DNA of 41,661 nt from positions 1-41,661 of IMG/VR virus record IMGVR_UViG_3300031775_000008; one strand, written 5' to 3'. Shown piece by piece: positions 12,068 to 32,352 of the stretch (positions within the stretch are counted from its first letter, which is position 1; each line of letters opens with the position of its first letter). Made by a program: the position numbers and the translations under genes. The notes below the pieces were generated by a model, which was not told where the DNA came from, searched no databases, and saw only the letters and a program-made list of their open reading frames with translations. This DNA comes from a virus.

Positions 12068-15000
12068 TTGCCCCAAGAATATTCAGACTTTAGATCTCAG
12101 TATAGATCTTATTTAAGAGACCCTGATGCCTTTTCTTTAGATGAGGTAGATAGGATGGAAAAAGAAGCCCAGAGAACGGGTATGATTTTCCGTCGTCAAG
12201 AAACTTCGGCTGATATAGGCTCTGTAGTAAGCAATGTATGGAATGGATTTGTACAGGGTTTTACAACCCTGCCAGTTGGAGATAAACCTACTAATGAAGT
12301 AGATGGTATTGCGCATAGTATAGGGCATTTACTTGGCTTTATAGGAGTTTTTAGTCCTGGTGGTATAGCTGCTAAAGCAGGCATTGGTATAACTAGAAAA
12401 GTTGCTGGAAAAACAATAATGGGGGCAAAAGGGTGGCTTGGTAGATCAGTACCAATGCAAGTTGCTGATTTTACTAGAGATAAAATACGCGGGACAGCTA
12501 TTGCTAATACTGCTTTAAAGAGCATTGATGATATAGCTGGCAAAAGAGCTGGACTTGCCCATCAGATGTTACGTCATGGAACACATCTTGGTGTAGCATC
12601 TGCAGTTTCTAGTGTTTGGGATAATATGGAGCATGCGGAAGATGTTCCTGATTATTTAGCTAGTCAATTCTGGACAGCTGCTCAAGGAGGTATCTTTGGT
12701 GCTACATTTGCTGGTATTGGGAATATGCCTATTCCAAAAGCTTTATCTAGTCTTAATGTAGGACCAGTAACTGGTAAGGATGTTTTAAAAGGAGTTGCTG
12801 GTAGTTTAGCTCAAACAGTTCCTGGTGCAATGGCAGGAGCTACTAATACAGAAAATGTATACAATGCACTCTTAGGTGGATTCTTTGGTTTTAAAGCACA
12901 ACCTTGGGCATATGAGAAAGCATATAAAAGACAAAATGATGCTGCTAGACAGGCTGAAAATGAGTCTATGGACTTTGAGTGGTATAAGACGACTGGAGAA
13001 TGGAAGAGTTTATCAAAAGTAGAGAGAAAAGCAGAAGAGGATGTTTATAGAACCTTATTTGCAAAAGGAGACGCTGGGGAGGTCTCTTCTCATCTTCTTA
13101 CAGCTACGGATCTTGGAGATCCAGTAGCAAAACCAAGGCCAGCAACTGTATTAGATAGGCATAAAAAATTCGGAGGGCAATCTGTAGAAGTCCTTAATGA
13201 AATGGAAACTATGGCTAGGGTTCGTGTTGGAGGTCAGGATAAGCCAGTAAATATAAGAAAAGAATATTTAAGATTTGAAGATGAAGTTGTTGACGTAAAA
13301 TCTGTAAAAGAAAAAGCAAAAACTCTTCAGCAAGAAATAGAATCAGTTGAAAGAGAAACTGGTAACGATTCTATTGAAATACCGATTGTTCGTCCAGTAG
13401 AGAATTTTTTTAAGAAAATAAAAGGGGTAGATTCGTTAAGTGAGTTAGAGTATGTACGCAACTTAGAATCTTTAAATCGAATAATAGTTGGTGAGGTTAA
13501 TAAGGTTAAGGGTGAAAGAATAAGTGAGGAAGAATATAAAAAGAAACTGACTGAATCTGGTAGGGATGCTGAGGGCGTTTTAAAAGACCTAATAGAAAAT
13601 GAAGGCTTAGAGTTAAGACTTCCAAATAACTATGCACAAAGACATAGAATTGGAACTATAAAAACAAGAGATATAGCTAAAGGTGAAGACCCAAAGACTG
13701 GTAGTAGAGGTGTGGGTAAGAGGGCTATGGACGCGATAAAGGATTTGTGGGTAGCTTTAGATAGGAAAAAAATTGATATCGAGGTTAAGCCTGGTACAAC
13801 TGAAGAATTTTACAAGAAAATGGGCTTTAAGTTTGTTGATAAAAAGGGCGAAGATGGTAAATATCGCTATACTTTTGATACAACTCCGCTTATTGATGCT
13901 TTTCAAAAGAAAAGCAAGTTTTCCCTAGATGACCCAAAAACAACTCCTTGGTCTGTTGTTAAAAACGATATATTAAATCGTTTTAAAGATAAGGGAATTA
14001 CTGAAGAGGATATGGGTGAGATTAGAAACTTCTATAGAAGATCTACCGAATCTATAAAAGTACCAAGATTCTCTTTAATGAAAGGGAAGTTAGTAGAGGA
14101 AAAAGAATTTGATTTTAATAACAATAGAATAACAAATGAAGAGTCTGTAAAGCTGATACATCGAATTGCTGCTGAAAAAGGTATTGTGAAAGATATGAGC
14201 GATACATACTTTACTGTTAAAAATGCAGTTCTCTATAAAGGTGGAAAAAGAGTACAAGATAAAATAGGCTCTGTAAAGCTTGATGGTAAAAGATATAGAT
14301 CTGTTGTAAAAATGGCAAGCGATATGGGTTACTACCCATACTCAGGTAAGTCAGATAGCCAAACCTTGATTTTTATGAAAAAAAATCTAGGTGAAAACTA
14401 TAAAGAAGAGTACAATAGGATTCAATCTGACCTTCAATCAATAGATCCGAAGTTTCCAGCTGAGTATAAAGCACTAAGAGCTCAAGCAATACACAAAAAA
14501 AGAGGGAATTTAAATCCTAAAGATTTCGATGAAATGTTTGTTTCTAATGTTAGGTGGTGGGAAGCTCTGAATGGTGATGTCAGTATTAAAGAAATGGCTA
14601 ATAATAAAGGTTATTTAAATGATGTCATGAACTTTAATAAAAGACAACAGGTTCTTTTTAATAACTACTATCCACTTACCTCTGATACATTTACCAAACC
14701 TTTTAAATATGTAGTTGTGAATAATCTACATGAGTCAAGTGATCCTGCTATAAAGAAAATTTTAAAGAAATGGAGCCCTGAGCATGATGATGGCTATGTT
14801 TTAGTTAGAATGGATAAATTAGATCTTATGGCTTCAGATATGGGTTTACCTTCACATTCTGGTTTTGCAAAACCTTTCTTAACATCAAACTACAGTGCGA
14901 CAGAGGGAAAACTAGGAACACTTATTGGAAAGCTTTCTTTTCAAGGTGCGTCTCCAGAGATGACGAAGGCGATGAAAGAAGCAGGAGTTGATTTTATAAT

Positions 15001-18000
15001 TCCAACCTCAGTTGCTAAACAGTATGGTAATAGGACTGTGATTGATCATAATTACAATGGAAAAGAGATAGGATTTTCTTCTAATGGGAAAACTATCGGA
15101 AAAGACACTATAGGTAATTTTATCTATGATATGCTTCCATCTGAAGTATCTGTTGATTGGAATACTAAAGATGGTTCTTATAAAAAGATTCAAAATGGTG
15201 AAATGGTAAAGGTCTTTAAACAAGTCCAAGAAAAATTTATGAACTATGATGTTCAGAAAAAGATGTTAGGAATTAAACATAAGGGTAAGCCTATTGATAT
15301 CAATAAGGTTATGAATTCATTCTTAAGAGATAAATTTGATGGGAATGATACTGCCAATAAGTTGCTTTTTGAATATCTAGAGGCTGGTAAAAGAAATCCT
15401 GATATGTTAAAAAGGGTTGAAAAGCATTTTAATAAAATGGGTCTAAAAGAAGTTGTTGAGGGAATGAAAGATAGGACTGAAGCTGGAGAAGCATTGAGAG
15501 AACTTGTTCGTCATAAAGTTACTCGTATGGAGTTTGACGGTATGGAAGACAAATCAATAAATGTTACTAAAGACTGGGGAAACGATTTTCAAAAAGAAAA
15601 ACTTACAAATACTCAGCAAATATTAGAAAATGCAGGTACATCTGATGGTGTAGCTATGGGTAAAAGAATTGCTCCATATATGGATAGAGCTCTAACTAAT
15701 TATTTATTAAAAAGAATACTCCAACCTCAAGTAACTGGATCTAAAGGTATAATGAGAGGTTATCATCTAGATCTTGCTTTAAGGAAAGACCCTTACGGTA
15801 ATACTTCCCGCTTATTAAAAGAAAATGATATTTTCTTTTTAGATAACAATATGGAAGGCTTAAGAATGCAGATCTTAAAACCTTCTGGAAGAAAGACTTG
15901 GGGCACATTAAAAGAGCAATGGGAGCTTTATTTAGCTGAAAAAGATGGAACTCCTATGAAAAAGCAGATGGAAGAAATGATGAGATCTATAGTGACAAGG
16001 TCTCCGATTGATGGTATTTCTGGTATTGCAGATTTAAAATTTGCTGGTTTTACTGGGATAAAAGGTGGTGGAATTCTTTTGCATCCAGATACAATGAAAA
16101 GACTTGGTGGTGCTGATCTTGATATAGATAGTGCTAATTTTTATATGAATTCACTTCCTAGGGAAGTTCATAAGATATCAGATGCGTTTAAAAATGATTT
16201 CTCTGATATAATGAATCATGTTAGAACAAAGACGATGCCGAGTAAAAATAAAAAGCTTAATAAAAAATTTGGAGACCCAAAAAGTTTAATAAAAGCATTT
16301 ATTGCTAAGGATGGTATGAAGGGTAGAAAAAGCTTTGTTGGGATGTTTGATCCTTATCTTAGAGCTGTTACTGCAAATACAATTCAAGATGCTAGTGGTA
16401 AAATGCGAGGTATCGCTGTAAATGCTCAGAGAGATATTAGACTTTTGTATGCAACTGCAAAGAGATCTCCTGGTAAAAAACTGATTCATGAAGACGCTGA
16501 TGGAAATAAAGTCATATTCTATCCAAGGCAAGGAGAGATGGATTTAAAAGCAAAGAGTTGGGCAGCTGTGGGTGTTACTGTTGACGTTGCAAATTACGGG
16601 AAACTGAAGTCTCCAGAGTTTTTCAAAGCTTTTTTGCTTGATTCTGGATTTAGAAAAGTAGAAGTAATTCCAAAAAAGGGTAAAAAATATGTAATGGATT
16701 TCAATCAATATTTAGATTATTTTAAATATGAGGGCGAACAGGTTGTTAGATTTACAGATAGTCCTATTTCTGAATTCCAGAATACAATGAATAAATTCTA
16801 TGGTAAAGATTGGAAGACTGGATTACCGTGGACAAGAAGAGATATTATTGATGCAGCAGAAGCTCATCCAAAGTGGGACACTTCCGCTTATAGTCAGTTA
16901 GCTAAGCTTATAAAATCTGTCGATTATACAGATACTATGTATGAAAGATATCAATATAATATAAATAATTTCCGTAATTACTTTAATCAGTTGAACCAAA
17001 TAGCGAAAGAGAGCCCTGAAATAACTCGTTATGTTGGAGGTAATAAGGGTTTTAAGGGAGCCTATGTTCAGGATTTAGCTAAAAGAATGGAGGTTCTTAA
17101 CAGGTTTTATAGTCCCGATAGGACAAATCAATCTATTTATAATCAGCCATATAATCTTGCAACTACTGAAGGTGTAAAGCGACTGGCCTATAATAAGGAG
17201 ATGTTTAACGACTTTATTGAAAGCCATACAATTACTCTTAAAAATGGCAAAGATAAAAATTTTATTACAGAATCTACAATTACAAAGAATAAAAAAGGTG
17301 AAGATGTTGTTAATTATAAAAACAAGACTTATTCTGATTACAAAGCAAATGAAACTTCAGAAGGAAGAGAGTACTTTTTAAGAAGATATATAAAACAAAT
17401 TAATGACTTTATAGATAACGACATGGAGGTCTTTACCTCTTTAAAAACAATAAATGATATTGGTAGACAAAACAATATTAAAGCAGACTCACATCTTCCA
17501 AGATATAATTTAGAAGAAGGAGGAGATCAGCTTTCAAGTTTAAATAAGGTCTTTATGGACTTAGCAACTGAAGTAAAAAATGATTTTGCAACTTCATATA
17601 ATGAGAACAGATATAATAAGAGAATTAGCGCTAATAGTACTTCTTTAGATCAAATAATACAGCGATTAGAAGGTAATGATCCAATGAGTATTAAAAATAT
17701 TGTAAAAAATTCAGTTACATATTTAAATCAAAATAAGCGTCCTTCAGATCCAGAATTAACTGAAAAAGGTTTAAGGCAATATTTTGATTCTCTTCTTTTA
17801 GGTTCTATTAATAAAGATGGAAAGACGCAGTCTTTCTACTTTACTCCTCAATTAGTTTCTCGCGAAGTATTAACTCAGTTTAATCTAAACAAACAATGGG
17901 CTTTTAAATCTTCTTTTGAAAGACCTTCAAGGGCTCAGCTTGAAAAAAGACTTGAAGGAGAAAATGATGTACGAGTTGCAAAGGAAGCTGCTGCTTTAAA

Positions 18001-21000
18001 TAAAACTGTTGAAGAAATGGAGGTTTTAGCTCCAACAAAAAGAATATCAGAGTTAGACCCTGATTTACAAGGTTATTACTCAAGGATTACAAAACAATTA
18101 AAAATTTTAAGAGAGCGTTCAGGTGTTGATGCGAGTACATTAGATAATTTTCAAAAAGGATTTTTTACTATCCGTGGCAAGGGCTCAACTGCTGAAATAG
18201 ATAAATATGATTTAAGAGGATTTGAGTCTTTCCTTAAAGATATAAATAATGGCTCAGGTCTTTTTAAATTCATTACTAGAGGAAAAAGTAGTAAGTATTT
18301 TGATTGGCTTCGTGAAATGTCTGAAGATGGTAAGCTAAAAATGGCTCTTGGCCCTTACTTAAAAATGTCTGAATCTGTTGCCTTTGACCATCTTGTTAAT
18401 AATTTTAAGTTAATAGAAAGAAATGTAACTGCAGCTAAGTGGGTTTGGAAAAAAGATCCAGAAACTGGTAAAAATATAAGAGTAAAAGAATATGGGACAT
18501 ATAAAGCTTGGGCTCCACAGTCTCATTTTGGAGAAATGATTAATACTGCTAAATCTGTTAGTGATTGGACTACTGGTATGCGATTTCAAATTGAAGATGA
18601 AACGCAAGCAAATTATGGTAGTGTATTAATTCAGGGTGCAAGATCACAGAAAAATAAAGCTGATAATCTTTGGAGACTTGCTTCTCTTGAAAGAGAAGCT
18701 GCATCTACTGTTATTAAAACAGCAGATGGTTATAAACTATATACAGATAAAACTTTAAGAAATCAGAATGAACAAACTCAGCACATTAAAAGACTTAAAA
18801 AAGAAGGTGTGGATCTTTTAAGTGAATTGGAAAAGGAAGATTATCGCTATACGATAGATGGTAAAACACAAAATTATAGTGCACGAGAGGTTATTGATAC
18901 TATTAAGAATAATCTTGATAAAGACTTAGCTGATTTTAAATCTAACTATATTAAGGTTACTCCAGATTTCTTACCCACAATGCAGGGTATAATAGATAAA
19001 ACTAGGTCTCGTAGGACAGTTAAAACTGAAACTGGCACACTTGATATAACTGAAATTCCAGTAACTTTTATGGAAAAATATTATATGGATCCTATTACAA
19101 AGCCAGGTGCAATAGTTTCTAAGGATGCTAAAAAGGCTACACTTGAAGAAGTTGCAGCACTTAGTAGAGAAACTACATATAAAGAACATTCTCTGGGCTG
19201 GAGAAATGTTGAAGAATACAATAAGATATATAATAGACCATTAAAAGAAGTATACGCACTTCGACATGTTCAAGGGCTTTTTAAAGATGACAATGGTCTT
19301 AGAGTTTCTTTGTATGATTTCTTTAGAAATTCTGGTAGTAAGGGTATTCCAACTCTTCATGCCAAAAAATATTTAAATAACTTGCTTTGGATGATTAATA
19401 ATAAAGAACCTGGCTGGCAGGAAGCATTAGAGGAAAGTTTTGCAAAATTTCATACACTTTCCTGGAAGCAAAGATTGCTATCTGATTCTTATGAGGCTTA
19501 TAAAAAATTTGAAGTAGAACAAGATAAATATTCTTGGAATGAAAATAACAATATAGAAAAAAGTCTTTCAATTGCTAGAAATTATTTTGAAAGAAAAAAT
19601 AATGCTACAAAAAGAGACGGATCTCCGAAAAGAGGGCATGTTCCTTGGAAACCTGAGACTGATGTTTATAGTCAATATGAACATGATATAGCTTTAGCTA
19701 GTCGAAATATAAAAATGGATGTATGGATACGACAAAAGTTAAGACATGATTCTATAACTGGTTTTCAACCAGTTGGAGAAAAAGAAAACTATTTTCCTCA
19801 TTTAGGTTATGATACGCAAGAGCTTTATAAGGAAATCCTTAATGAAGCAGATAGGATTTCAAGAAAAGTTGAAAATCCAGAAGAAAGACAAAAAGCTATT
19901 GATGCTTTAATGCGAAGACATGAGTCTATACAAGAGCAATCTAAAAAAGAAGATGGTGGGTTAGCTGATAAGGCTAGGGATAATCTTTTGTTAAAAGATA
20001 TGGAAGGAGATCGAGGAATAAGAGCTTTGTCTTCTCTTGGTGCTGGTAGTAGGCCTGGAAATATGCTAACTCGAAAAGCAAATCTCGGTGGTTATAAAAG
20101 AGATCAAGCTGTTATAGGTGAATATAAAGCTTCAGTTTTAAATGCTATTGGCACAGAATTACAATCTGTTTCATTTAGAAGAATATTAAATGAATTTAAA
20201 AAAGAAAGACCAATGGGTAAGCATACAAAAGACTGGGAAATGTATATGCGCATTTTTGCAAGAGATATGACTGGTGCTCCTTCTACTGTTAGTGAAGATA
20301 TGCTAAGTAGTAAAACATTAAATATAAAACGTACTCCTTGGTGGTATACTAGTGATCAGTATTTATACAGTAAAAAAAGTGTTTACAATTTAGTTGATAA
20401 ATTATCTGGAAGATCTAAACCGAATAAGTTTATGAAAGAGTTGTATAATAAGCGCCAGCAAGGTCTTGAAACCAATGGTCAAATGGATTTATTCGATCCT
20501 AAGAAAAATGAAAGCTTTGAGCAATGGTGGGATAAACAACGGCAAACTTTTGCTACAAGATATGATAAAGATGGAAATGCAGTTGAAGCTAATATGAATT
20601 GGTTTTCAGGTCAAATGAAACAATACTCCCAATTAGAAGGTAAATATCAGCTCGCTACTCTTTTAGCTCGAATGAAAGTTGTTGTTAATAATGTTTTTGG
20701 TGGAGGAACAAATGCTTGGGTTCATATTGGAGCTGGTCCAATAAGAAAATCAAGAAAAATTGATTTCTGGCAGTCTATTGATCCTAGATTTAAAACAATG
20801 AAAGATGTTGATAATTGGGCCAGTGAACTTGGAATTGCTGAAGAAATGCTTAAATATGACTTAGGATATTTAGGTATGAAAAGAGATCCAAATTGGGAAG
20901 TCTTTTCAAAAGAGGTTGCTCAACTTGCAACTGAAAAATGGCAAAATAAGGGAAAAGATAAACTTTATGATGTGAGATTTAGAGATCTTGTTAAAAAGCA

Positions 21001-21802
21001 CAATATCGGTTCAAAAGCTATGGATGTTGCTGCTTCTTTTATGGGAAAATCAGAGCTATTTTTAAGATTAAATACATTTAAAGCGGCTTATGTTGCAATT
21101 AGAGAAAGTATGAGCCCTGTTGAAATGAAATTAAATGATCCTTATTTAATTGAACAGGCTAAAAAAGCAGTAAAAGCAAGTCAGTTTTTATATACAGCAC
21201 CTTTTAGACCTTCTTTTGCAAGAACTTCTGCTGGTAAAGTCTACTCCAGATTTAAATTATGGGCTTGGAATTCGGTTAAATTTAGAAAAGATGTTTATAA
21301 AGAGGCTAAATATGCTGGTTTTAGACCAGGATCTCCAGAAGCAAAGAGATTAGAAAGAATGATGACTGCTGATTTATTTATGATTGGTATGGCAAAGCTA
21401 TTACCCTACACAATGTTTGACTATTCGTTACCAGCTCCATACTCTTATTTTCAAGATACCTCTGATTGGTTATTTGGAAGTGACCAGCAAAGAGAAAGAG
21501 CTTTCTATGGAGTTCTTCCAAAAGCTATTGCTCCGTTACATGAATTTATGCCATCTATTTTAAGGGGCCCTGAAGCTATTTTTGGCAATTTGTTCTCTGG
21601 TAATTGGGAAAGATTTGCTGATTATACATTAGTTAGTCACTTCCCATTTGGGATGTTAGGACGAGATGTTTGGAATGCAGTTCAAAGTCCTGCTCTTATT
21701 GGAGAGTTTTTAACTGGTGTACCATTACATAGAATGAGTAGGTTAAAAGATGATATAATTGAAGGTAAAAAGGCTCCTGCTTATTCACCTGGATTCTTTT
21801 AA
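12068..21802 (+). CDS. Giant virion protein, candidate two-barrel (crAss/YonO-like) RNA polymerase, 3244 aa
   Basis: The TTG start follows directly on the previous TAA, with AAGG 7 nt upstream. Residues ~40-300 are Gly/Ala-rich with hydrophobic stretches, as in ejection proteins. Residues ~515-608 look like a GNAT fold (R547-G-V-G-K, then F581-YKKMGF). Around 908-990, DGYVLVRMDKLDLM, IGKLSF (K955) and SVAKQYGNR (K984) resemble the beta-subunit-type barrel with its two lysines. At 1310-1358, TRSP then GGADLDIDSANFYM resembles the beta'-type barrel, with Asp1350, Asp1352 and Asp1354 as a DxDxD metal site. The C-terminal ~350 residues resemble end domains of phage large polyvalent proteins. It follows two ejection-type proteins, so entry with the DNA is inferred. 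The polymerase call rests on motif reading, not on a search. Confidence 0.65.
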   Translation: MPQEYSDFRSQYRSYLRDPDAFSLDEVDRMEKEAQRTGMIFRRQETSADIGSVVSNVWNGFVQGFTTLPVGDKPTNEVDGIAHSIGHLLGFIGVFSPGGIAAKAGIGITRKVAGKTIMGAKGWLGRSVPMQVADFTRDKIRGTAIANTALKSIDDIAGKRAGLAHQMLRHGTHLGVASAVSSVWDNMEHAEDVPDYLASQFWTAAQGGIFGATFAGIGNMPIPKALSSLNVGPVTGKDVLKGVAGSLAQTVPGAMAGATNTENVYNALLGGFFGFKAQPWAYEKAYKRQNDAARQAENESMDFEWYKTTGEWKSLSKVERKAEEDVYRTLFAKGDAGEVSSHLLTATDLGDPVAKPRPATVLDRHKKFGGQSVEVLNEMETMARVRVGGQDKPVNIRKEYLRFEDEVVDVKSVKEKAKTLQQEIESVERETGNDSIEIPIVRPVENFFKKIKGVDSLSELEYVRNLESLNRIIVGEVNKVKGERISEEEYKKKLTESGRDAEGVLKDLIENEGLELRLPNNYAQRHRIGTIKTRDIAKGEDPKTGSRGVGKRAMDAIKDLWVALDRKKIDIEVKPGTTEEFYKKMGFKFVDKKGEDGKYRYTFDTTPLIDAFQKKSKFSLDDPKTTPWSVVKNDILNRFKDKGITEEDMGEIRNFYRRSTESIKVPRFSLMKGKLVEEKEFDFNNNRITNEESVKLIHRIAAEKGIVKDMSDTYFTVKNAVLYKGGKRVQDKIGSVKLDGKRYRSVVKMASDMGYYPYSGKSDSQTLIFMKKNLGENYKEEYNRIQSDLQSIDPKFPAEYKALRAQAIHKKRGNLNPKDFDEMFVSNVRWWEALNGDVSIKEMANNKGYLNDVMNFNKRQQVLFNNYYPLTSDTFTKPFKYVVVNNLHESSDPAIKKILKKWSPEHDDGYVLVRMDKLDLMASDMGLPSHSGFAKPFLTSNYSATEGKLGTLIGKLSFQGASPEMTKAMKEAGVDFIIPTSVAKQYGNRTVIDHNYNGKEIGFSSNGKTIGKDTIGNFIYDMLPSEVSVDWNTKDGSYKKIQNGEMVKVFKQVQEKFMNYDVQKKMLGIKHKGKPIDINKVMNSFLRDKFDGNDTANKLLFEYLEAGKRNPDMLKRVEKHFNKMGLKEVVEGMKDRTEAGEALRELVRHKVTRMEFDGMEDKSINVTKDWGNDFQKEKLTNTQQILENAGTSDGVAMGKRIAPYMDRALTNYLLKRILQPQVTGSKGIMRGYHLDLALRKDPYGNTSRLLKENDIFFLDNNMEGLRMQILKPSGRKTWGTLKEQWELYLAEKDGTPMKKQMEEMMRSIVTRSPIDGISGIADLKFAGFTGIKGGGILLHPDTMKRLGGADLDIDSANFYMNSLPREVHKISDAFKNDFSDIMNHVRTKTMPSKNKKLNKKFGDPKSLIKAFIAKDGMKGRKSFVGMFDPYLRAVTANTIQDASGKMRGIAVNAQRDIRLLYATAKRSPGKKLIHEDADGNKVIFYPRQGEMDLKAKSWAAVGVTVDVANYGKLKSPEFFKAFLLDSGFRKVEVIPKKGKKYVMDFNQYLDYFKYEGEQVVRFTDSPISEFQNTMNKFYGKDWKTGLPWTRRDIIDAAEAHPKWDTSAYSQLAKLIKSVDYTDTMYERYQYNINNFRNYFNQLNQIAKESPEITRYVGGNKGFKGAYVQDLAKRMEVLNRFYSPDRTNQSIYNQPYNLATTEGVKRLAYNKEMFNDFIESHTITLKNGKDKNFITESTITKNKKGEDVVNYKNKTYSDYKANETSEGREYFLRRYIKQINDFIDNDMEVFTSLKTINDIGRQNNIKADSHLPRYNLEEGGDQLSSLNKVFMDLATEVKNDFATSYNENRYNKRISANSTSLDQIIQRLEGNDPMSIKNIVKNSVTYLNQNKRPSDPELTEKGLRQYFDSLLLGSINKDGKTQSFYFTPQLVSREVLTQFNLNKQWAFKSSFERPSRAQLEKRLEGENDVRVAKEAAALNKTVEEMEVLAPTKRISELDPDLQGYYSRITKQLKILRERSGVDASTLDNFQKGFFTIRGKGSTAEIDKYDLRGFESFLKDINNGSGLFKFITRGKSSKYFDWLREMSEDGKLKMALGPYLKMSESVAFDHLVNNFKLIERNVTAAKWVWKKDPETGKNIRVKEYGTYKAWAPQSHFGEMINTAKSVSDWTTGMRFQIEDETQANYGSVLIQGARSQKNKADNLWRLASLEREAASTVIKTADGYKLYTDKTLRNQNEQTQHIKRLKKEGVDLLSELEKEDYRYTIDGKTQNYSAREVIDTIKNNLDKDLADFKSNYIKVTPDFLPTMQGIIDKTRSRRTVKTETGTLDITEIPVTFMEKYYMDPITKPGAIVSKDAKKATLEEVAALSRETTYKEHSLGWRNVEEYNKIYNRPLKEVYALRHVQGLFKDDNGLRVSLYDFFRNSGSKGIPTLHAKKYLNNLLWMINNKEPGWQEALEESFAKFHTLSWKQRLLSDSYEAYKKFEVEQDKYSWNENNNIEKSLSIARNYFERKNNATKRDGSPKRGHVPWKPETDVYSQYEHDIALASRNIKMDVWIRQKLRHDSITGFQPVGEKENYFPHLGYDTQELYKEILNEADRISRKVENPEERQKAIDALMRRHESIQEQSKKEDGGLADKARDNLLLKDMEGDRGIRALSSLGAGSRPGNMLTRKANLGGYKRDQAVIGEYKASVLNAIGTELQSVSFRRILNEFKKERPMGKHTKDWEMYMRIFARDMTGAPSTVSEDMLSSKTLNIKRTPWWYTSDQYLYSKKSVYNLVDKLSGRSKPNKFMKELYNKRQQGLETNGQMDLFDPKKNESFEQWWDKQRQTFATRYDKDGNAVEANMNWFSGQMKQYSQLEGKYQLATLLARMKVVVNNVFGGGTNAWVHIGAGPIRKSRKIDFWQSIDPRFKTMKDVDNWASELGIAEEMLKYDLGYLGMKRDPNWEVFSKEVAQLATEKWQNKGKDKLYDVRFRDLVKKHNIGSKAMDVAASFMGKSELFLRLNTFKAAYVAIRESMSPVEMKLNDPYLIEQAKKAVKASQFLYTAPFRPSFARTSAGKVYSRFKLWAWNSVKFRKDVYKEAKYAGFRPGSPEAKRLERMMTADLFMIGMAKLLPYTMFDYSLPAPYSYFQDTSDWLFGSDQQRERAFYGVLPKAIAPLHEFMPSILRGPEAIFGNLFSGNWERFADYTLVSHFPFGMLGRDVWNAVQSPALIGEFLTGVPLHRMSRLKDDIIEGKKAPAYSPGFF

Positions 21803-25212: not shown

Positions 25213-25254
25213 GGGCTCGCTCGCTCCGCTCGCTATCGGCTCGCGAGCTCGCCC
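25213..25254 (-). repeat. GC-rich stem-loop of CTCGC units at primase-helicase stop
   Basis: In AT-rich surroundings, these 42 nt are almost all G/C and built from CGCTCG/GCTCGC units. The arms pair as GGGC + GCTCGC + CCG against CGG + GCGAGC + GCCC, with small internal loops. The structure overlaps the last codons and stop (25233) of the primase-helicase. It has no T-tract. It may be an RNA-stability or pause element, or a transferred REP-like repeat. Confidence 0.65.
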
Positions 25255-27014
25255 TCTATTTCATTAAACTGAAAGTATAAAGGATTATACTCCAGTGTCG
25301 TTTCAAAGTTATTAGCGTCTCTTGATTTAAGAGATCTAAAAACTCTAAGCTGCGAATCTCTATCTCCTTCAATAGCCATTACTTTATCAGCTTTTTGTGC
25401 TATTGAAGACGAATGCTTTGCAGCGTGAACGTCAAGTCTACCATCTCTACTACCAGATTTAGTAATGTGAGAAACGCCTATTATAATAATATCTTGCGCA
25501 GATACTATTTGTCTCAATCCTTGAATAATATGGTCTATCTTAACCATACTATCTGATATATATTGAGAAGATCCAATACCATCAATTGTATCAATGACAA
25601 GGATTTTAGGCATTACTTCTGCTACCAAATGCTTAATAGCTTCAATTGTCGGAGGTACTGTAAGACATTGAATAAAATCAATATCTTTACTCCAGGAATT
25701 ACTATTAGTCATATAATGGTCATCTACTTCTTGAGAAGTTTTAGATTTATCTATCTGTACGAATCTTCTATACATTAGATAATCATCAAATTCTAAAGAT
25801 AACCATAATGTCTTTAACTTTGCTCTTAATACAATATTTTGCATAAGACCAGTTTTTCCTAGACCTGTATCTCCCATCAAAATTGATAGTTCATTTGGTA
25901 GAAACCAATAATCTGAACCAATAGATGGATATAGATCCTTTAAGTTAAACCCATGTTCATGGAGATTATTTCTAATACGTTCAACGTACCTTTTCTCCAT
26001 ATCTTCTGCAGATAAAACTGCAACCATTGGGTCATTACCTTTTGCTTTACTTGGATAGTAAATGCATTTAGGATCACAATATTCATCCATTACTTTGTCA
26101 TGACAACCATAACGATATGTTCCAGCATAAGAAGAAGCTACCATATTTTCTCTTTCTTTAGTATCCATAGTTGGAGCCCAACCAGAGACAATAGATTTAA
26201 CAGCTTCTTGAGGAAGTCCATGTCTTCTATAATAAGATATCATTCTTAATAGAGTAATGTGCCGCTTCCCTACTTTAGGCCCCTCATTATACATCTTCTG
26301 TACACATGGAGCTATTGAGCTAACTTCTACTTGGCTTGTATTAGCAGAACCATAATCCTGATTATTAGAACGAACAGGTATTACAGGTTCAAAAAGCTGA
26401 GTGATTTCTACATCATTCTTTTCTATATCTCTAAAAGGAGATTCAGATTCTTTATGAATTTCTTTCCAGTCTAATGACATAATCTCTTTTACAGTAAAAG
26501 GAGTTTTATATAATCCAGTTTTGCTATTTTTAGTATAGCCAACACGGATTATTCTTGTTCTGTCATATATACTGGGGTCTGCTTCTGGGAAATATCTAGT
26601 TAAGGTTTCTTTAACTATTTGTGGTAGATTTTTGGATGGTTCAAAACCAAAGATATTTGGTAAATGAATATGATAACCTGTTCCTGAGAACCAAGGCTGA
26701 ATCCAGTCTTCTGGTATCTCTAGGCCATCTAGCATATTCCTAATACACTCTCTTGTTCTTTCTAGAACGTAATCATCTGTATTACTTCCTTTATCAATGT
26801 CTAAGATAATTCTATCTAAATAACATTTACCTTTAAAGGATTTAACAGTTTTGAATGTTTCGAGGTGTTTGGGAAATTCTGAATTAAAAGTATAGTAAGA
26901 CCTATACAATTCATCGCCATTTAAATATTCTTTTAAAGTATCTAATGGTATTGCTTGATTCCTATTCACAGTAGAGCCAACGGCAACTTCTACGTACTTA
27001 GTGGTTTCAAACAT
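25233..27014 (-). CDS. AEP primase - RecA/DnaB-type helicase fusion (593 aa)
   Basis: Residues ~60-180 show archaeo-eukaryotic primase motifs: LDID (D72, D74), SGTGYHIHL (H115) and IYDRTRIIRVGYTKNSKTG. Residues ~235-320 carry four Cys (237, 304, 313, 317) around a helical region, like a PriL/PriCT metal site. From ~375 comes a RecA-fold ATPase with Walker A GDTGLGKTG (381-389), Walker B ILVIDTIDG (D475) and GVSHITKSG. It would make primers and unwind DNA at the phage fork. It starts 8 nt after the winged-helix gene. The family is known in phages; no DNA polymerase is seen beside it. Confidence 0.85.
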   Translation of the reverse strand: MFETTKYVEVAVGSTVNRNQAIPLDTLKEYLNGDELYRSYYTFNSEFPKHLETFKTVKSFKGKCYLDRIILDIDKGSNTDDYVLERTRECIRNMLDGLEIPEDWIQPWFSGTGYHIHLPNIFGFEPSKNLPQIVKETLTRYFPEADPSIYDRTRIIRVGYTKNSKTGLYKTPFTVKEIMSLDWKEIHKESESPFRDIEKNDVEITQLFEPVIPVRSNNQDYGSANTSQVEVSSIAPCVQKMYNEGPKVGKRHITLLRMISYYRRHGLPQEAVKSIVSGWAPTMDTKERENMVASSYAGTYRYGCHDKVMDEYCDPKCIYYPSKAKGNDPMVAVLSAEDMEKRYVERIRNNLHEHGFNLKDLYPSIGSDYWFLPNELSILMGDTGLGKTGLMQNIVLRAKLKTLWLSLEFDDYLMYRRFVQIDKSKTSQEVDDHYMTNSNSWSKDIDFIQCLTVPPTIEAIKHLVAEVMPKILVIDTIDGIGSSQYISDSMVKIDHIIQGLRQIVSAQDIIIIGVSHITKSGSRDGRLDVHAAKHSSSIAQKADKVMAIEGDRDSQLRVFRSLKSRDANNFETTLEYNPLYFQFNEIEGELASR

Positions 27015-27298: not shown

Positions 27299-27900
27299 TA
27301 AAGTGCTTCAGTAGAGACTGAAGATACTGCTTTTGCAATACTTTCTTTTACAGGTTGAGCTTCGGAATTAGGAGCTTTATAGTTCTTAGGATATCCTTTA
27401 GCTACTTGACTCATAAAGTATTCAGCAAAATTTGCAGAATCTCTTCCAGCCGAAGTAACACTATTCCAAGTGCTATATTTCAATTTATCACTTGTAGTGT
27501 TTATATTAGTATAGGTTAAAGTTTTAATCTTTTTACCAATACATCCAGCAAGTAAATCAGATGATGGAATTCCATTTGCACTTAAACCTTCTTGAACATC
27601 TTCATCTGTCATGCCACAAGCAACGAACAGGTCCTTTAATTTAAATGCACCACCCCAATCTAATACTTCTTTTGTAATAGGATCTCGTTTGTAATTACCA
27701 CCAATAGTAACTGTTCTTTCCCAGTCATTCTTTAATACAAGAACTTCTAGTTTAATAGAAACGTCACGATCAAAACCACTTGATTTTTCTTGCTCAGTAA
27801 CATCACTAGCCTTTTTAATTTCTACCTCGTCAACATAGATTCCATTGCCCATGTAACCTTTGGAGTTTCCTCCACCTGAATTTGATAATGATAAAGCCAT
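27298..27900 (-). CDS. Single-strand-binding / recombination-mediator-like protein (200 aa)
   Basis: A Gly-rich N-terminus (SNSGGGNSKGYMGNG) is followed by beta-rich sequence (IKLEVLVLKNDWERTVTIGGNY) and a Lys/Thr-rich strand (KKIKTLTYTNINTTSDKLKY). It overlaps the Sak4-like gene by one base. Phage Sak4 ATPases are commonly coupled to an SSB-like partner, so the role is inferred from position and beta content. No diagnostic motif was found. Confidence 0.5.
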   Translation of the reverse strand: MALSLSNSGGGNSKGYMGNGIYVDEVEIKKASDVTEQEKSSGFDRDVSIKLEVLVLKNDWERTVTIGGNYKRDPITKEVLDWGGAFKLKDLFVACGMTDEDVQEGLSANGIPSSDLLAGCIGKKIKTLTYTNINTTSDKLKYSTWNSVTSAGRDSANFAEYFMSQVAKGYPKNYKAPNSEAQPVKESIAKAVSSVSTEAL

Positions 27901-28577
27901 TACTTAGCTCCTTTCTTTATGTATATTTTATCCCATTCAAAAGGTATTATCTGACCCTTTAAATGTTCACACCTTGAACCTGCTTCTAAAGCAGCTCCAC
28001 CTTTAAACGACACCATTAGCTTGTCAGTTTCATCATCTCTAAACATATATCCAATAGCATCACAATGAGCCATTATCATGTTTTTGAGCTTTCCTGAAAT
28101 GTCTAAACTTTCTGGATCTACTGCCGTTGTATTTTCAATCTCCCTAGCTATTTTTCTATGTCCAACAATAATAACATTATCACATAGCTTTAAAAGAGTT
28201 TTAATATTATTCATTACACGGTCTCTTACTAATTGCCATCCTAGTCCAAAATTCCCAACATCCTGTATTTTATCTACATTATGTTCAGCACAAACTGATT
28301 TTTCTGTCCATTCTATCAGTTTGTCAATGGTATCTAGAGCAAAATATTTGTAATCATGACCTTCATTTGCTTCATTGTAAAAGTTAATCAATTCTTCTTT
28401 TGAATTTACTTCAAAGAAGTGACCTTCTAATAAATGAGAACCTTCTTCAGTATCAATTACAAGACAATCATTAAGACCAGATAGCATTGTAGTCTTCCCT
28501 ACTTTGGGTGGACCATACAATAATAATGTTCTTGGATTGACCTCTTTGATTCCTCTTTTTTCTTTACTTAAAGCCAT
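27900..28577 (-). CDS. Sak4-like RecA-fold ATPase (single-strand annealing/recombination), 225 aa
   Basis: Walker A is YGPPKVGKTT (residues 21-30) and a Walker B-like YFALDTIDK follows at ~98-106. NVIIVGHRKI and DISGKLKNMIMAHCD match the AAA_24/Sak4 fold of phage recombinases. It probably loads onto ssDNA with the downstream SSB-like protein. It follows the ubiquitin-like cassette across a 128-nt gap that contains a hairpin. Confidence 0.8.
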   Translation of the reverse strand: MALSKEKRGIKEVNPRTLLLYGPPKVGKTTMLSGLNDCLVIDTEEGSHLLEGHFFEVNSKEELINFYNEANEGHDYKYFALDTIDKLIEWTEKSVCAEHNVDKIQDVGNFGLGWQLVRDRVMNNIKTLLKLCDNVIIVGHRKIAREIENTTAVDPESLDISGKLKNMIMAHCDAIGYMFRDDETDKLMVSFKGGAALEAGSRCEHLKGQIIPFEWDKIYIKKGAK

Positions 28578-28705: not shown

Positions 28706-29491
28706 TTATTGAGTCTTTTTCAAGTTCTCTACAAATTTCGGATAGTCTATTTCTGCATTCAATAATAAACTCGGAAATCCGAATAATATTTTCTCTGCAA
28801 CCATACCTCCATTTGTACATTTTTTGATTTCTGATGCGATAATACTTCCTGCAAATGTACTGCAATAAGCAGTTGATCTTGCTGAGCAAGGTTCAGGGTC
28901 TCCATCTTCATCAGAATACCAAGTTTTTAAGTAATTATCAATTTCAAAAGGTATTTGAAATTTATACAATTGAAATGTTTCACTACCCATTCTAGCATCA
29001 AAGAAATATGAATTACTACAAAATTCATTAGTATCTTGCCTAATGTCATTTCTAGTGTATCCACTTCTAAATGCTTTGCTTTGGATAATATCCATTCTTG
29101 CTTCCATAGAATCTACAGCCATTACAACTACATCAGTAACTCCTTCCACACTGTCTACTCTGCCATAAATAGGTGCTACTAGCCTACTTGATTCTTTAGT
29201 AATATTATCTTGTACTGTAGATACATTTGCTAAAGGATTAATTGACATGATGTTTTGCTTAACAGCTTCAACTTTTGGTACATCTAATTGATGAATAGTA
29301 AAGTCTTGAACTCCAATATTCTCAGGACCAACAGAATCTCCGTCAAATAAGTTAAACCTATCTACACCCATCCTTGTTAATGTTGAAGCAGTAAATGAAC
29401 CTATAGAGCCACAACCAATTATAGTAACACGAAGTCTACTTAGATTAAACAAAGCACTATTTCTAGCTCTTAAGTCTATTTCGCTAATCAT
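28706..29491 (-). CDS. E1/ThiF-like activating enzyme (261 aa)
   Basis: Adenylation-domain motifs are present: VTIIGCGSIGS (G26-S32, nucleotide loop), FDGDSVGPENIGVQ (D50, N58, Q62), then VVVMAVDS (D127). Candidate catalytic Cys202 and Cys210 lie in the DPEPCSARSTAYC segment. This is the layout of bacterial E1-like enzymes that adenylate the C-terminal Gly of a ubiquitin-like protein. It overlaps the JAB gene by 4 nt and is the last gene of the cassette. The partner is inferred to be the 69-aa protein at 31970-32179. Confidence 0.88.
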   Translation of the reverse strand: MISEIDLRARNSALFNLSRLRVTIIGCGSIGSFTASTLTRMGVDRFNLFDGDSVGPENIGVQDFTIHQLDVPKVEAVKQNIMSINPLANVSTVQDNITKESSRLVAPIYGRVDSVEGVTDVVVMAVDSMEARMDIIQSKAFRSGYTRNDIRQDTNEFCSNSYFFDARMGSETFQLYKFQIPFEIDNYLKTWYSDEDGDPEPCSARSTAYCSTFAGSIIASEIKKCTNGGMVAEKILFGFPSLLLNAEIDYPKFVENLKKTQ

Positions 29492-30372
29492 ATGAGTAAA
29501 TCCGTCGCACTTCTTAGCTTCAAAACTTTCTTAGGCGTTGGAACATTTAATAGTTCAGAACCATAAGCTTTGTTGAGATTTTCAACATCATCAATTATTT
29601 CTTGTGGAGTAAACATTTCTGTTTTTAGTCCTTCAATTTTATAATCAATTTCAATTAAAGCTGCGTCTATGTTAGCATCCATTATCTCTAGATCAACTTG
29701 ATCATATGAAATATCATCTTTAGTGATACCAAAGCTTTTATTCCATCCTTTTTCATCAAGTGCTTCATCATAAAGAGCTAGTTGATTATTTGAAACGGAT
29801 ATTTCATCTCTAAGAGATTTAAACGACCTCTTATTCCATCCATTTCTTTGATAAGCAGCAGTTTCTTTGACGACACATTCCTTTATTTCTTTTTCCATGT
29901 CAACAAACTCTTCAGATTGGCTAATGTTTTCTAATTCACATTTAACTTGAATTGGCATTGGGTCTTTAGATGATAGTATTAATTCATACTCGCCTTTATT
30001 GTTTACCACTAAAGCAAGTCCACTATTAGTATCACCTATTGTGTCCCAATCAGTTGAGCTCATTGATGCACCCATATTATGATGAGAATGCCACCAACAA
30101 TACATTAGCTTATTTTCAAGAGCTTCTGTTTTGTATTTTTCTGTTACCTCTCCATACCAATTTGCTAGCGCTTGTTTATCAAGATGACAAACAGTCGAAG
30201 TAACTTCTTGTTTCATTATTGCAGGATCTTTAATTACCCAACGATTTTCATCATCTTTAAGAACTACTGCCATACCTCCGATTTCTGTACTTAATAAATC
30301 ATAGGTCTTTCTTGCATAACCTAGAATTTTATTCCAAGCTGTGTCTTCAATATGTATTATATTGTAATCCAT
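29488..30372 (-). CDS. JAMM/JAB metalloprotease (294 aa)
   Basis: The zinc-protease motif is complete: E30 (STEIGGM), then HSH (H95, H97), 7 residues, S105, 2 residues, D108. JAMM enzymes remove C-terminal extensions from ubiquitin-like proteins or cut isopeptide bonds. Residues ~165-294 form a helical, charged extension not needed for the core fold. The gene starts in a TAATG overlap with the 505-aa gene and ends in an overlap with E1, so all three are co-translated. The Ubl ends Gly-Gly-Cys, so cutting after Gly-Gly is a plausible job. Confidence 0.88.
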   Translation of the reverse strand: MDYNIIHIEDTAWNKILGYARKTYDLLSTEIGGMAVVLKDDENRWVIKDPAIMKQEVTSTVCHLDKQALANWYGEVTEKYKTEALENKLMYCWWHSHHNMGASMSSTDWDTIGDTNSGLALVVNNKGEYELILSSKDPMPIQVKCELENISQSEEFVDMEKEIKECVVKETAAYQRNGWNKRSFKSLRDEISVSNNQLALYDEALDEKGWNKSFGITKDDISYDQVDLEIMDANIDAALIEIDYKIEGLKTEMFTPQEIIDDVENLNKAYGSELLNVPTPKKVLKLRSATDLLI

Positions 30373-31889
30373 TATAAAGGTCCTTCATTTAATGGTTGTT
30401 GATTATTTACTCCTCTAATTGGAATAAGAGAATCTGTATATGTAAGAATATAGCCAATGAACATGTTAGATAAATCACTAATAAGTTCAACATTTGTACT
30501 ATTTTTCCACTCTACTATACAGTCACTTAATGCCATACCATCTGAGTATTGGTATGAATCTCTTTCTTCTATTAAATTTGCATATTCAATATCTGGTAAA
30601 GAGTAAATACTGGCTAATTGAGTTACATAGCTATTTCTTACTCCTTCAAGACTAAGGTCAAATTGTACAATATCAATATTCATTCCAGGGTTTTGAGTGT
30701 GAATATTTGGATGTATCAAAGGGTCATCTGTTAATGGACTACTTTCTTCAACATGTTCTTCATTATATTTATAACATGTATCTATAAATGCACATTTTCT
30801 ATTTTCACAAATAGTCTTTGACCTATGCGCTGACCAACATCTATCAACTTGTCTGTCAGTATGCCTCATTCTATCTACATTTGTTCCTGCAGTGCTTGGT
30901 AACCAATTATAAAATTGATTTATATTATTATGAGGTTGAGTGCGATTAATATCATAGGTTGTTAGCCATCTATGAGTAGATAAAGCTATATCAGTTATAT
31001 TCATTGAAGAATAAGCACCCTCTAATTCAGGTTGCAGTTCTCCCATACACCAATTACTTGTATCATAATAAGGATGATCGTGACTTCTTCTACCGTTTAA
31101 AGATTTTCGAGCGTCTCTATGATAACTTAGTCTTCTTTCATTAGCATCCATTAAATCTTTTGTGAAAAGATTTATATCTTTACTATAATCATCTAATTTA
31201 TCAATTGAATTAATAAAGAATTCAGTGAATGAGTCAAACTTATACTTTATATGTAAATCTACGTATGGTGACTCTAACACTTCTCTATTACTTTGTTGTG
31301 TACGTTCATACGGTACTTTTACATCAACCTTATCACCATCAACCTCACCTGTCACTCTAATATGTGGAATTGGAATTTTTATATCTATATTCCATTCAGG
31401 AGCTTTTGATGTTTTATCATACCAAGGATGACTACGTTCATTTGATTTTAATTTGTTTACAAGTTTAAAAGAATCATCATTTTCTTTACCATATTGGCTT
31501 GTTCTTCTTACACTTGCTTCAATATTAAATTGATTCAATATGTCTTTATTAATAGTAGATCTTAATGTTTTATCAAATTTATTCATTATTGACTTAATAG
31601 ATTTCTGACTACCTTCATATTGTTTCACAAAATTAAACGCTTTTTCAATGCTATAAAGTGTTAATGTATCTTCTGTAATGAACTCTTTTAATACATCCAT
31701 TATGTCTGTAATAGTAATTAATCTTCTAGTTCTTAAGTTCTTACGAAATTCAACCACTTTATCTTTATATGATTCTTCTTTATAAAAATCATCGGGATTA
31801 TCTAATTCAAGTGCTTTAGATATTCCATTGTACTTTTTTAAGGCATCATCTAAGATACCTGTAAAATTATGTAAATAATTAACTCCCAA
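30372..31889 (-). CDS. E2-like candidate of the ubiquitin-like cassette (505 aa)
   Basis: The TTG start has AAAGGAG 6 nt before it. Residues ~1-150 are helical; ~165-215 have beta-like strands (IDIKIPIPHIRVTG, VDVKVPYE). A motif H272-P273-x7-C281-x-G (DHPYYDTSNWCMGEL) recalls the HPN-x(7-8)-C core of E2 enzymes. A later helix (NITDIALSTHRWLTTYD) and a Cys cluster (351, 361, 366, 372) could bind zinc. A second HPNI at 393-396 has no Cys at the matching place. The E2 call is inference: no full E2 fold could be confirmed. It lies between Ubl and JAB and is translationally coupled to JAB. Confidence 0.5.
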   Translation of the reverse strand: MGVNYLHNFTGILDDALKKYNGISKALELDNPDDFYKEESYKDKVVEFRKNLRTRRLITITDIMDVLKEFITEDTLTLYSIEKAFNFVKQYEGSQKSIKSIMNKFDKTLRSTINKDILNQFNIEASVRRTSQYGKENDDSFKLVNKLKSNERSHPWYDKTSKAPEWNIDIKIPIPHIRVTGEVDGDKVDVKVPYERTQQSNREVLESPYVDLHIKYKFDSFTEFFINSIDKLDDYSKDINLFTKDLMDANERRLSYHRDARKSLNGRRSHDHPYYDTSNWCMGELQPELEGAYSSMNITDIALSTHRWLTTYDINRTQPHNNINQFYNWLPSTAGTNVDRMRHTDRQVDRCWSAHRSKTICENRKCAFIDTCYKYNEEHVEESSPLTDDPLIHPNIHTQNPGMNIDIVQFDLSLEGVRNSYVTQLASIYSLPDIEYANLIEERDSYQYSDGMALSDCIVEWKNSTNVELISDLSNMFIGYILTYTDSLIPIRGVNNQQPLNEGPL

Positions 31890-31918
31890 ATTTGACTCCT
31901 TTCTTCAAGTCTATTAAT

Positions 31919-31950
31919 GCACTTCAGGCTCCTTGCGGAGCCTTCCGTGC
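31919..31950 (-). other. Strong stem-loop between Ubl and 505-aa gene
   Basis: AGGCTCC (31926-31932) pairs with 31937-31943 around a 4-nt loop (GCAA, a GNRA type, on the minus strand). GCAC/GTGC extend it after a 3-nt internal loop. It fills the 80-nt gap before the 505-aa gene. It could set the Ubl:E2 ratio by mRNA processing or partial termination. Confidence 0.65.
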
Positions 31951-31969
31951 TACCGAGGTGTTTACTTAA

Positions 31970-32179
31970 TTAGCATCCACCAGTTTTCCTTGCAGTAACA
32001 AATGTAACAACATCATTTGCTAACAAAACAGTATCACTGTTTGCTTCTCTGCTACCAACGCTAGCTGTGTAATCACCGCTAATACCTTGGCTACTTGCAA
32101 ATGAGCTTACTGTTGTTCCTTCTGCTACATCTACAAATTCATGGCCACTGCCATCTACAACTTTTATAACCTTTATCAT
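31970..32179 (-). CDS. Ubiquitin-like beta-grasp protein ending Gly-Gly-Cys (69 aa)
   Basis: The pattern is strand (IKVIKVVDGSG), strand (EFVDVAEGTT), helix (VSSFASSQGI), then strands around YTASVGSR, VLLANDVV and TFVTARK. This is the MoaD/ThiS/ubiquitin beta-grasp order, with a final TGGC. E1-like enzymes activate the terminal Gly of such tails; the extra Cys would need removal or a role of its own. An AAGGAG lies before the ATG. It heads the Ubl-E2-JAB-E1 run. A ThiS/MoaD sulfur-carrier role is an alternative, but the JAB and E2-like neighbours favour conjugation. Confidence 0.75.
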   Translation of the reverse strand: MIKVIKVVDGSGHEFVDVAEGTTVSSFASSQGISGDYTASVGSREANSDTVLLANDVVTFVTARKTGGC

Positions 32180-32190
32180 TAGAGTACTCC

Positions 32191-32352
32191 TTAGTTAGTT
32201 GTATTTATGGGTTGAATAACATACTTACCAGAGCTATTATGTAGTTTGGCTTTCGTCATTATGAATTTGGCACGGTGCATACTTTCATATACACCGACCA
32301 GTTGAATTAAATTAGGTAATTTATGAATTACCTGAAACTTAGTAACAGTCAC
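32191..32352 (-). CDS. Hidden small gene, GTG start (53 aa), just upstream of Ubl
   Basis: GTG 32352 lies inside the last codons of the 146-aa gene and follows AGGAGGT with 4-nt spacing, a near-perfect ribosome site. The frame reads 53 aa (KFQVIHKLPNLIQLVGVYES at residues 5-24) to TAA 32191. It is basic and may form one alpha/beta unit. No family was recognised. The close fit of start, overlap and spacing to the Ubl gene suggests a cassette member. Confidence 0.7.
   Translation of the reverse strand: MTVTKFQVIHKLPNLIQLVGVYESMHRAKFIMTKAKLHNSSGKYVIQPINTTN

Follow-up and report, generated by a model that had tools for sequence, protein, structure and literature searches.

A phage-borne gene cassette that probably encodes a ubiquitin-like conjugation and deconjugation pathway

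Bil and CBASS, the known bacterial systems of ubiquitin-like protein (Ubl) conjugation to which a role has been given, are anti-phage defenses (PMC10097602, PMC11354881). We describe a phage cassette that carries the parts of such a system. It lies in the IMG/VR virus record IMGVR_UViG_3300031775_000008 (positions 1 to 41,661); this whole stretch of 41,661 bases is here called the window. The cassette encodes a Ubl, an E2-like protein of 505 residues, a JAMM protease, and an E1/ThiF-like activating enzyme, and it probably constitutes a self-contained phage-borne pathway for Ubl conjugation and deconjugation. If so, the usual roles would be reversed, with phages using protein tagging within their own replication program, and the cassette would be a viral counterpart of machinery that is elsewhere known in cells and on plasmids. 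Two cultured phages, crAss001 and FpV4, carry the cassette, making viral Ubl tagging directly testable.

In the proposed pathway, the JAMM protease would first trim the variable residues that follow the Gly-Gly of the Ubl precursor. E1 would adenylate the Gly-Gly end with ATP and take the Ubl as a thioester on Cys202, from which it would be handed to Cys281 of the E2-like protein. The Ubl would then be attached to target proteins through their lysines or other nucleophilic groups, and the JAMM protease would take it off again. We infer the E2 role, the thioester transfer, and the formation of adducts from the sequence, profile, and model evidence set out below.

Gene order and conservation of the cassette

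All cassette genes lie on the - strand, transcribed in the order small gene, Ubl (31970..32179), E2-like protein (30372..31889, TTG start), JAMM protease (29488..30372), and E1/ThiF (28706..29491). A sequence-only reading of the window had described four adjacent leftward genes, the last three coupled stop to start. Both points hold: the E2-like and JAMM genes share 1 base, and the JAMM and E1 genes share 4 bases. The same reading had named an E1/ThiF-like enzyme, a complete JAMM protease, a large protein with an HP-x7-C motif, and a beta-grasp protein with a Gly-Gly tail, all beside a phage replication module; each was recovered here, the beta-grasp fold as a prediction.

The arrangement recurs across many phage contigs. 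A search of IMG/VR with an E1 profile returned about 55 related loci, and profiles for the four proteins, run over the IMG/VR loci, detected E1 in 58 (window included), the E2-like protein in 46, and the JAMM protease in 50. Gene order was counted in the 34 loci of the window's phage group in which 3.5 kb or more of sequence precedes E1; we label this group “marine-type,” which makes no statement on the source of the samples. In 30 of these 34 loci, all four genes share a strand and run Ubl, E2-like, JAMM, E1, and the JAMM/E1 overlap is present in every one of the 30. In three of the remaining four (L019, L021, and L039), the Ubl makes up the N-terminal domain of a protein of 196 to 207 residues; the fourth, L053, is a short contig and the only locus where the Ubl went undetected. 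The closest relative, L002, has an identical gene order and 62–78% identity across the four proteins. With its order kept in this many loci, the cassette is not a chance assembly. A single-sequence JAMM pattern gave no match in viral contigs, such patterns being too specific.

The ubiquitin-like protein

The window Ubl has 69 residues and ends in ...VTARKTGGC. Its AlphaFold2 model is a beta-grasp (mean predicted local confidence, pLDDT, 81), so that the two features by which beta-grasp modifiers are recognized, the fold and an exposed C-terminal Gly(-Gly), are both found, the former as a prediction. An alignment of 26 Ubls has just three invariant columns, the Lys and the two Gly residues of K-[TSV]-G-G. 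What follows is variable. In the window, Gly67-Gly68 is followed by a single residue, Cys69, which we propose is trimmed (the three residues span 31973..31981, - strand); the homologs have 0 to about 60 residues after the Gly-Gly, or fused domains of about 125 residues in L019, L021, and L039, where the fusion junctions fall exactly at NKTGG or GKTGG. A variable tail after an invariant Gly-Gly is typical of a precursor that is cleaved behind the two glycines. As a side observation, the three fusions (L019:2653-3276, L021:2288-2878, and L039:2405-3019) recall ubiquitin–ribosomal protein fusions.

The fold also brings in the main alternative. By VIA Z score, the Ubl model is nearest to MoaD (9.1), Mth1743 (9.0), and TtuB (8.9), with ubiquitin at about 8, and Pfam ThiS matches 7 of the 26 Ubl homologs; the window Ubl and the 505-residue protein have no meaningful Pfam match. 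These likenesses favor a sulfur-carrier pathway, in which a Ubl thiocarboxylate would deliver sulfur to a small molecule, a tRNA, or a DNA base. E1 would adenylate the Ubl, delivery would run through the cysteine-rich 505-residue protein, whose conserved four-cysteine motif counts in favor of this scheme, and the JAMM protein would release the product, as Mec+ does with CysO. CysO and Mec+ are a precedent for a JAMM enzyme in sulfur chemistry. Three points make such a pathway rather unlikely: among the cassette and neighbor proteins searched with Pfam and PHROGs, no rhodanese, cysteine desulfurase, cysteine synthase, or tRNA-thiolase was named; the HPY...C-x-G of the large protein resembles E2 active sites, notably those of Prok-E2_D; and the JAMM profile is closest to deubiquitinases, as described next.

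The JAMM protease and the activating enzyme

The JAMM/MPN+ metalloprotease of 294 residues is deubiquitinase-like. Its catalytic set, E30 and H95-S-H97-x7-S105-x2-D108 (the latter within HSHHNMGASMSSTD, 30049..30090, - strand), is complete in the window and in 50 of 50 homologs, with the Pfam Prok-JAB match of the window protein below the cut-off (16.9 versus 25 bits). In the PDB, the JAMM profile best matches archaeal Rpn11 (6fjv, 1e-3), followed more weakly by RPN11 and AMSH; the nearest solved relatives are all deubiquitinases, at modest E-values. An intact JAMM protease is present in all 10 loci in which the Ubl already ends in GG. Because no trimming is needed there, maturation alone cannot explain the enzyme. 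Removal of the Ubl from conjugates would be the simpler reading of its role.

The E1/ThiF-like enzyme has 261 residues and one adenylation domain, which matches PF00899 at 1.1e-22 (80.8 bits against a cut-off of 28.1); the best PDB matches of its profile are UBA5 (1e-17) and then Cap2. Invariant in the close E1 set are G-x-G-x-x-G-S, D-x-D, K73, D127, and the Cys of WYSDE..EPC, so that the active site is largely complete. The last of these, Cys202 (28886..28888, - strand), is the putative catalytic cysteine. It is invariant in 57 marine-type E1s and aligns with the invariant Cys of E1s from crAss-like and gut phages.

The E2-like protein

The E2 assignment, which draws on a motif together with weak profile and fold signals, is the weak link of the cassette. 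The active-site-like motif HPYYDTSNWC runs from His272 to Cys281 (31047..31076, - strand). We aligned 31 diverged homologs, which span 430–740 residues and are highly divergent. P273, C281, and P319 do not vary, while W308, C351, C366, and C372 are nearly invariant; the His of HP-x7-C is common but not universal. Locally the motif reads [HFY]P[YF]-x(n)-C-x-[GS], as in HPYIKENMDRYGTGNVCFG. The E2 hallmark of a conserved active-site Cys after an HPN-like motif is found in the form HPY..C. A second motif, C351-x9-C361-x4-C366-x5-C372 (30774..30839, - strand), is invariant in six close relatives, with C351, C366, and C372 conserved in at least 90% of the 31 sequences, and it is a possible zinc or iron–sulfur site.

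Profile comparison points the same way. Against a Prok-E2_D set of seven plasmid and cellular proteins, the phage profile scored 27.3, and the maximum of 80 column shuffles was 17.2; because column shuffles destroy local correlation, this score is support and not proof. The best alignment, in register at HPY and CxG, places HPY on the YPY of Prok-E2_D and the phage Cys on the E2 Cys, the active sites compared being YPYFNAYSDGRICIG in Prok-E2_D and FPYISRSTYNRGTICLG in the phage. In the AlphaFold2 model, the predicted layout comprises N-terminal helices, a 4-strand sheet (residues 165–217), a helical insert, HP272..C281, helices, the four-Cys motif, and C-terminal helices; as modeled, the elements follow one another as in an E2 that carries an insertion. 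In a further comparison, VIA paired the model with CDC34 (Z 2.8 over 128 residues, root-mean-square deviation 4.7) and the Tsg101 UEV domain (Z 2.9), scores that are too weak taken alone. BFVD holds six structural relatives of the model, all unnamed, and a tblastn search of 50,697 phage records with the E2-like protein gave no match.

The large protein might instead not be an E2. E1 would then transfer the Ubl directly, in a SAMP-like manner, and the large protein would be a substrate or an E3-like adaptor. The weak evidence for an E2 fold favors this variant, as do the size range and divergence of the protein, which substrates or adaptors can show. Against it stands the single Cys that stays invariant through 31 diverged proteins, within C-x-[GS] and after [HFY]P[YF]. 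When the protein is aligned by profile with its gut-phage counterparts and with plasmid E2_D proteins, the best alignments also fall on this Cys. We judge the variant improbable, if less so than the sulfur carrier; it changes only the E2 step, and its probability overlaps with that of the conjugation pathway.

Several observations weigh against the proposed pathway. The AlphaFold2 model of the 505-residue protein is of middling confidence (pLDDT 64, predicted TM score 0.56), a Foldseek search of the PDB with it returned nothing significant (best E 0.72), and the VIA Z scores for E2-fold chains are all below 3. No Pfam E2 family matches any of the 31 large proteins, and hhalign gives the large protein a probability of at most 5% against the plasmid E2_D, crAss, and gut versions. 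The window E1 lacks the canonical Arg of N-x-x-R-Q (it has NIGVQ). Some plasmid type 6d E1s likewise lack this Arg, with NLKNQ at the same place, so that its replacement is a known degree of freedom; the activity of the window E1 is putative. Finally, the Ubl tails of crAss phages are KSG-A/L/T and not GG, and the gut-phage Ubls (L005 and L008) have no Gly tail; for this reason, the Ubl chemistry may vary between phage groups.

Relation to known systems

The closest kin of the phage cassette are plasmid operons of the Prok-E2_D type (PF14460, type 6d). Type 6d is row 6d of Iyer et al. 2006, which describes the Prok-E2_D operons and defines them by an absolutely conserved His C-terminal to the Cys (PMC1779556). 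Those examined here come from plasmids of Bacillota and cyanobacteria (L086 and L088–L093). The two share the E2-JAMM-E1 order (L088, L089, and L092 compared with the window), the E2 active site [YFH]PY..(G)x[IV]C[ILFW]G and the JAMM motif HSHx7-SxxD, E1 and JAMM proteins alignable by hhalign (97% and 94.5%), and a site beside dnaN, Rad52, or primase genes. They differ in several respects. The phage E2-like protein has 430–740 residues where Prok-E2_D has about 230, PF14460 matches none of the 31 phage proteins, and these have no invariant His after C281. The phage Ubl is ThiS/MoaD-like with K-x-G-G and is not alignable with the plasmid upstream proteins, and the phage cassette has no separate helical gene. 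On these sequence comparisons, we treat the phage cassette as kin of type 6d and at most as a candidate member. In the literature found, no function has been described for type 6d operons since 2006.

One type 6d-like operon, L086 (G338 contig C22), which may lie on a large phage or a plasmid, has ribonucleotide reductase and a DnaN-like gene as neighbors; its genome belongs to the same phylum as the metagenome-assembled genome (MAG) of L073, described below.

The sequence-only reading had equated the cassette with the functional parts of Bil operons. At the level of predicted activities this is supported: Ubl, E2-like protein, deubiquitinase, and E1 are conserved together in dozens of phage contigs, and, as in Bil (BilABCD), the Ubl has a tail that needs trimming. 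At the level of families it does not. BilA carries a pair of Ubl domains and BilB a CEHH motif, and BilD combines an inactive and an active adenylation domain with a Cys domain (PMC11354881). The phage Ubl has one domain, C281 is followed by P287, L289, and S294 where CEHH has E at +6 and H at +8 and +13, and the phage E1 has one ThiF domain. Also unlike Bil, the cassette is phage-carried and adjoins replication genes. Since the three defining features of Bil (tandem Ubl, CEHH, and two-domain E1) are absent, membership was rejected.

Comparison with CBASS led to the same outcome. The E1 core and JAMM protease are related to Cap2 and Cap3. Cap2 is a fused E2-E1, whereas here E1 and the E2-like protein are encoded by separate genes; in addition, the cassette has its own Ubl, and no cGAS-like enzyme was seen in it. 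CBASS type II was rejected on the fusion. PRTRC was rejected as well: the E1 scores 22 bits against the NCBIfam cut-off of 144.75 for TIGR03736, and the PRTRC A/B/C models matched none of the other cassette proteins.

With host Ubl systems acting against phages and these genes borne by a phage, the cassette might serve as a counter-defense decoy, in which a competing Ubl and a JAMM protease that strips host conjugates (Bil, CBASS Cap2/Cap3) would act with no conjugation of their own. A decoy could do without an E1 and an E2-like Cys that are conserved at almost all loci. The Ubl, E2-like protein, and E1 of the phage are moreover divergent from the Bil and CBASS proteins, and the operon is fixed beside core replication genes. 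We consider this explanation very improbable.

Phage lambda TAPI and TAPK (a Ubl and a JAB-NlpC protein) likewise pair a phage-borne Ubl with a JAMM protease. They lack E1 and E2 and lie in the tail module, whereas the window cassette has an E1 and an E2-like protein and lies in the replication module; a tail TAPI/TAPK assignment was rejected on the module and on the E1. No phage-encoded Ubl conjugation cassette beyond TAPI was found in the literature covered, which leaves subscription papers and preprints outside.

Distribution in other phages and in cellular genomes

The order Ubl, large protein, JAMM, E1 also occurs in crAss-like phages, which are abundant in the human gut, in Flavobacterium phage FpV4, and in the gut phages L005 and L008. 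In the cultured crAss001, the cassette is gp79–gp76. By hhalign probability, the E1 of the window group matches that of the crAss group at 99.9% and that of the gut group at 100%; for JAMM the values are 97.3% and 93%. The crAss and FpV4 cassettes resemble that of the window in the tail of the Ubl, there K-S-G(-G), which in FpV4 is KSGG followed by about 200 residues, and in a Cys-x-Gly in the large protein, where crAss phages and FpV4 have YMHSH...C-x-G in common. Unlike the window Ubl, theirs is the N-terminal domain of a protein of 200–310 residues. In crAss001 and FpV4, the genes are annotated as hypothetical, metalloprotease, or “thiamine biosynthesis,” and their PHROG families as “unknown function.”

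Some features of these loci stand apart from the cassette proper. In one crAss-like locus, the Ubl is followed by a domain like the C-terminal domain of ribosomal L7/L12 (L003:2275-3201; PF00542, 5e-12). In the gut phages, a reverse-transcriptase-like gene with a YADD box follows E1 (L005:6915-8252 and L008:9455-10687). Nine small proteins in L005 (1889-12241) and four in L008 (4528-13245) end in C-x-C-x-S-L-L, usually with E before it; this shared tag is unexplained and was seen in no other locus fetched.

The cellular genomes sampled gave no true match. A scan of 84,980 prokaryote genomes with an E1 pattern found no close cellular relative, and a scan of prokaryote genomes with crAss E1 found only three MAG contigs, all phage-like. 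Two of them, L073 and L075, were read from end to end and are contigs of crAss-like phages that carry the cassette. A cellular origin of the close relatives was rejected on these pattern scans, which detect close relatives only, and on the phage-like character of the MAG contigs. The E2-like profile, run over 694 genomes, gave two marginal matches that we judged to be chance.

Genomic setting and possible targets

Downstream of the window cassette lies a replication and recombination module, with a Sak4-like single-stranded DNA-annealing AAA protein (27900..28577, - strand; phrog_124, 3e-33) and a primase-helicase (25233..27014, - strand; phrog_19, 2e-18, and phrog_16345, 4e-16). At most of the loci tested, the cassette is followed directly by a gene for a single-strand annealing protein whose type changes (Sak4- or Erf-like in L032, L052, and L057), and a primase-helicase homolog lies downstream near the cassette in every relative checked.

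Because such genes adjoin the cassette in crAss-like phages and the plasmid kin as well as in the window group, we propose, more speculatively, that its targets could be replication or recombination proteins of the phage or the host. The sequence-only reading had suggested that host proteins, phage virion proteins, or competing phages could be tagged. In eukaryotes, PCNA and Rad52 receive SUMO/ubiquitin tags. It is a tentative idea, which we hold to be doubtful in its full extent, that several unrelated phage lineages, crAss-like phages among them, run a core Ubl system of their own and use it, in the course of infection, to tag and untag proteins of replication or recombination. The same doubt covers its companion claim, that such a system would not be borrowed from host defense.

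The window phage is tailed, with terminase and portal genes present. It has no near relative in INPHARED and is distant from every phage there. Positions 12068-21802 of the window encode a protein of 3,244 residues with no PHROG match.

Two further elements lie within or in front of the cassette. Between the Ubl and E2-like genes lies an intergenic hairpin (31890..31969, - strand). The RNA fold of 31880-31980 has -32.8 kcal/mol (z -3.9), with equally stable shuffles in 0 of 200, and the hairpin is a possible attenuator or processing site. Ahead of the Ubl gene, where a hidden small gene had been called from the letters, there is an open reading frame for 53 residues with no assigned role (32191..32352, - strand), whose GTG start at 32352 follows AGGAGG. 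It is kept in L002, L009, and L010 and was not found at the other cassette loci.

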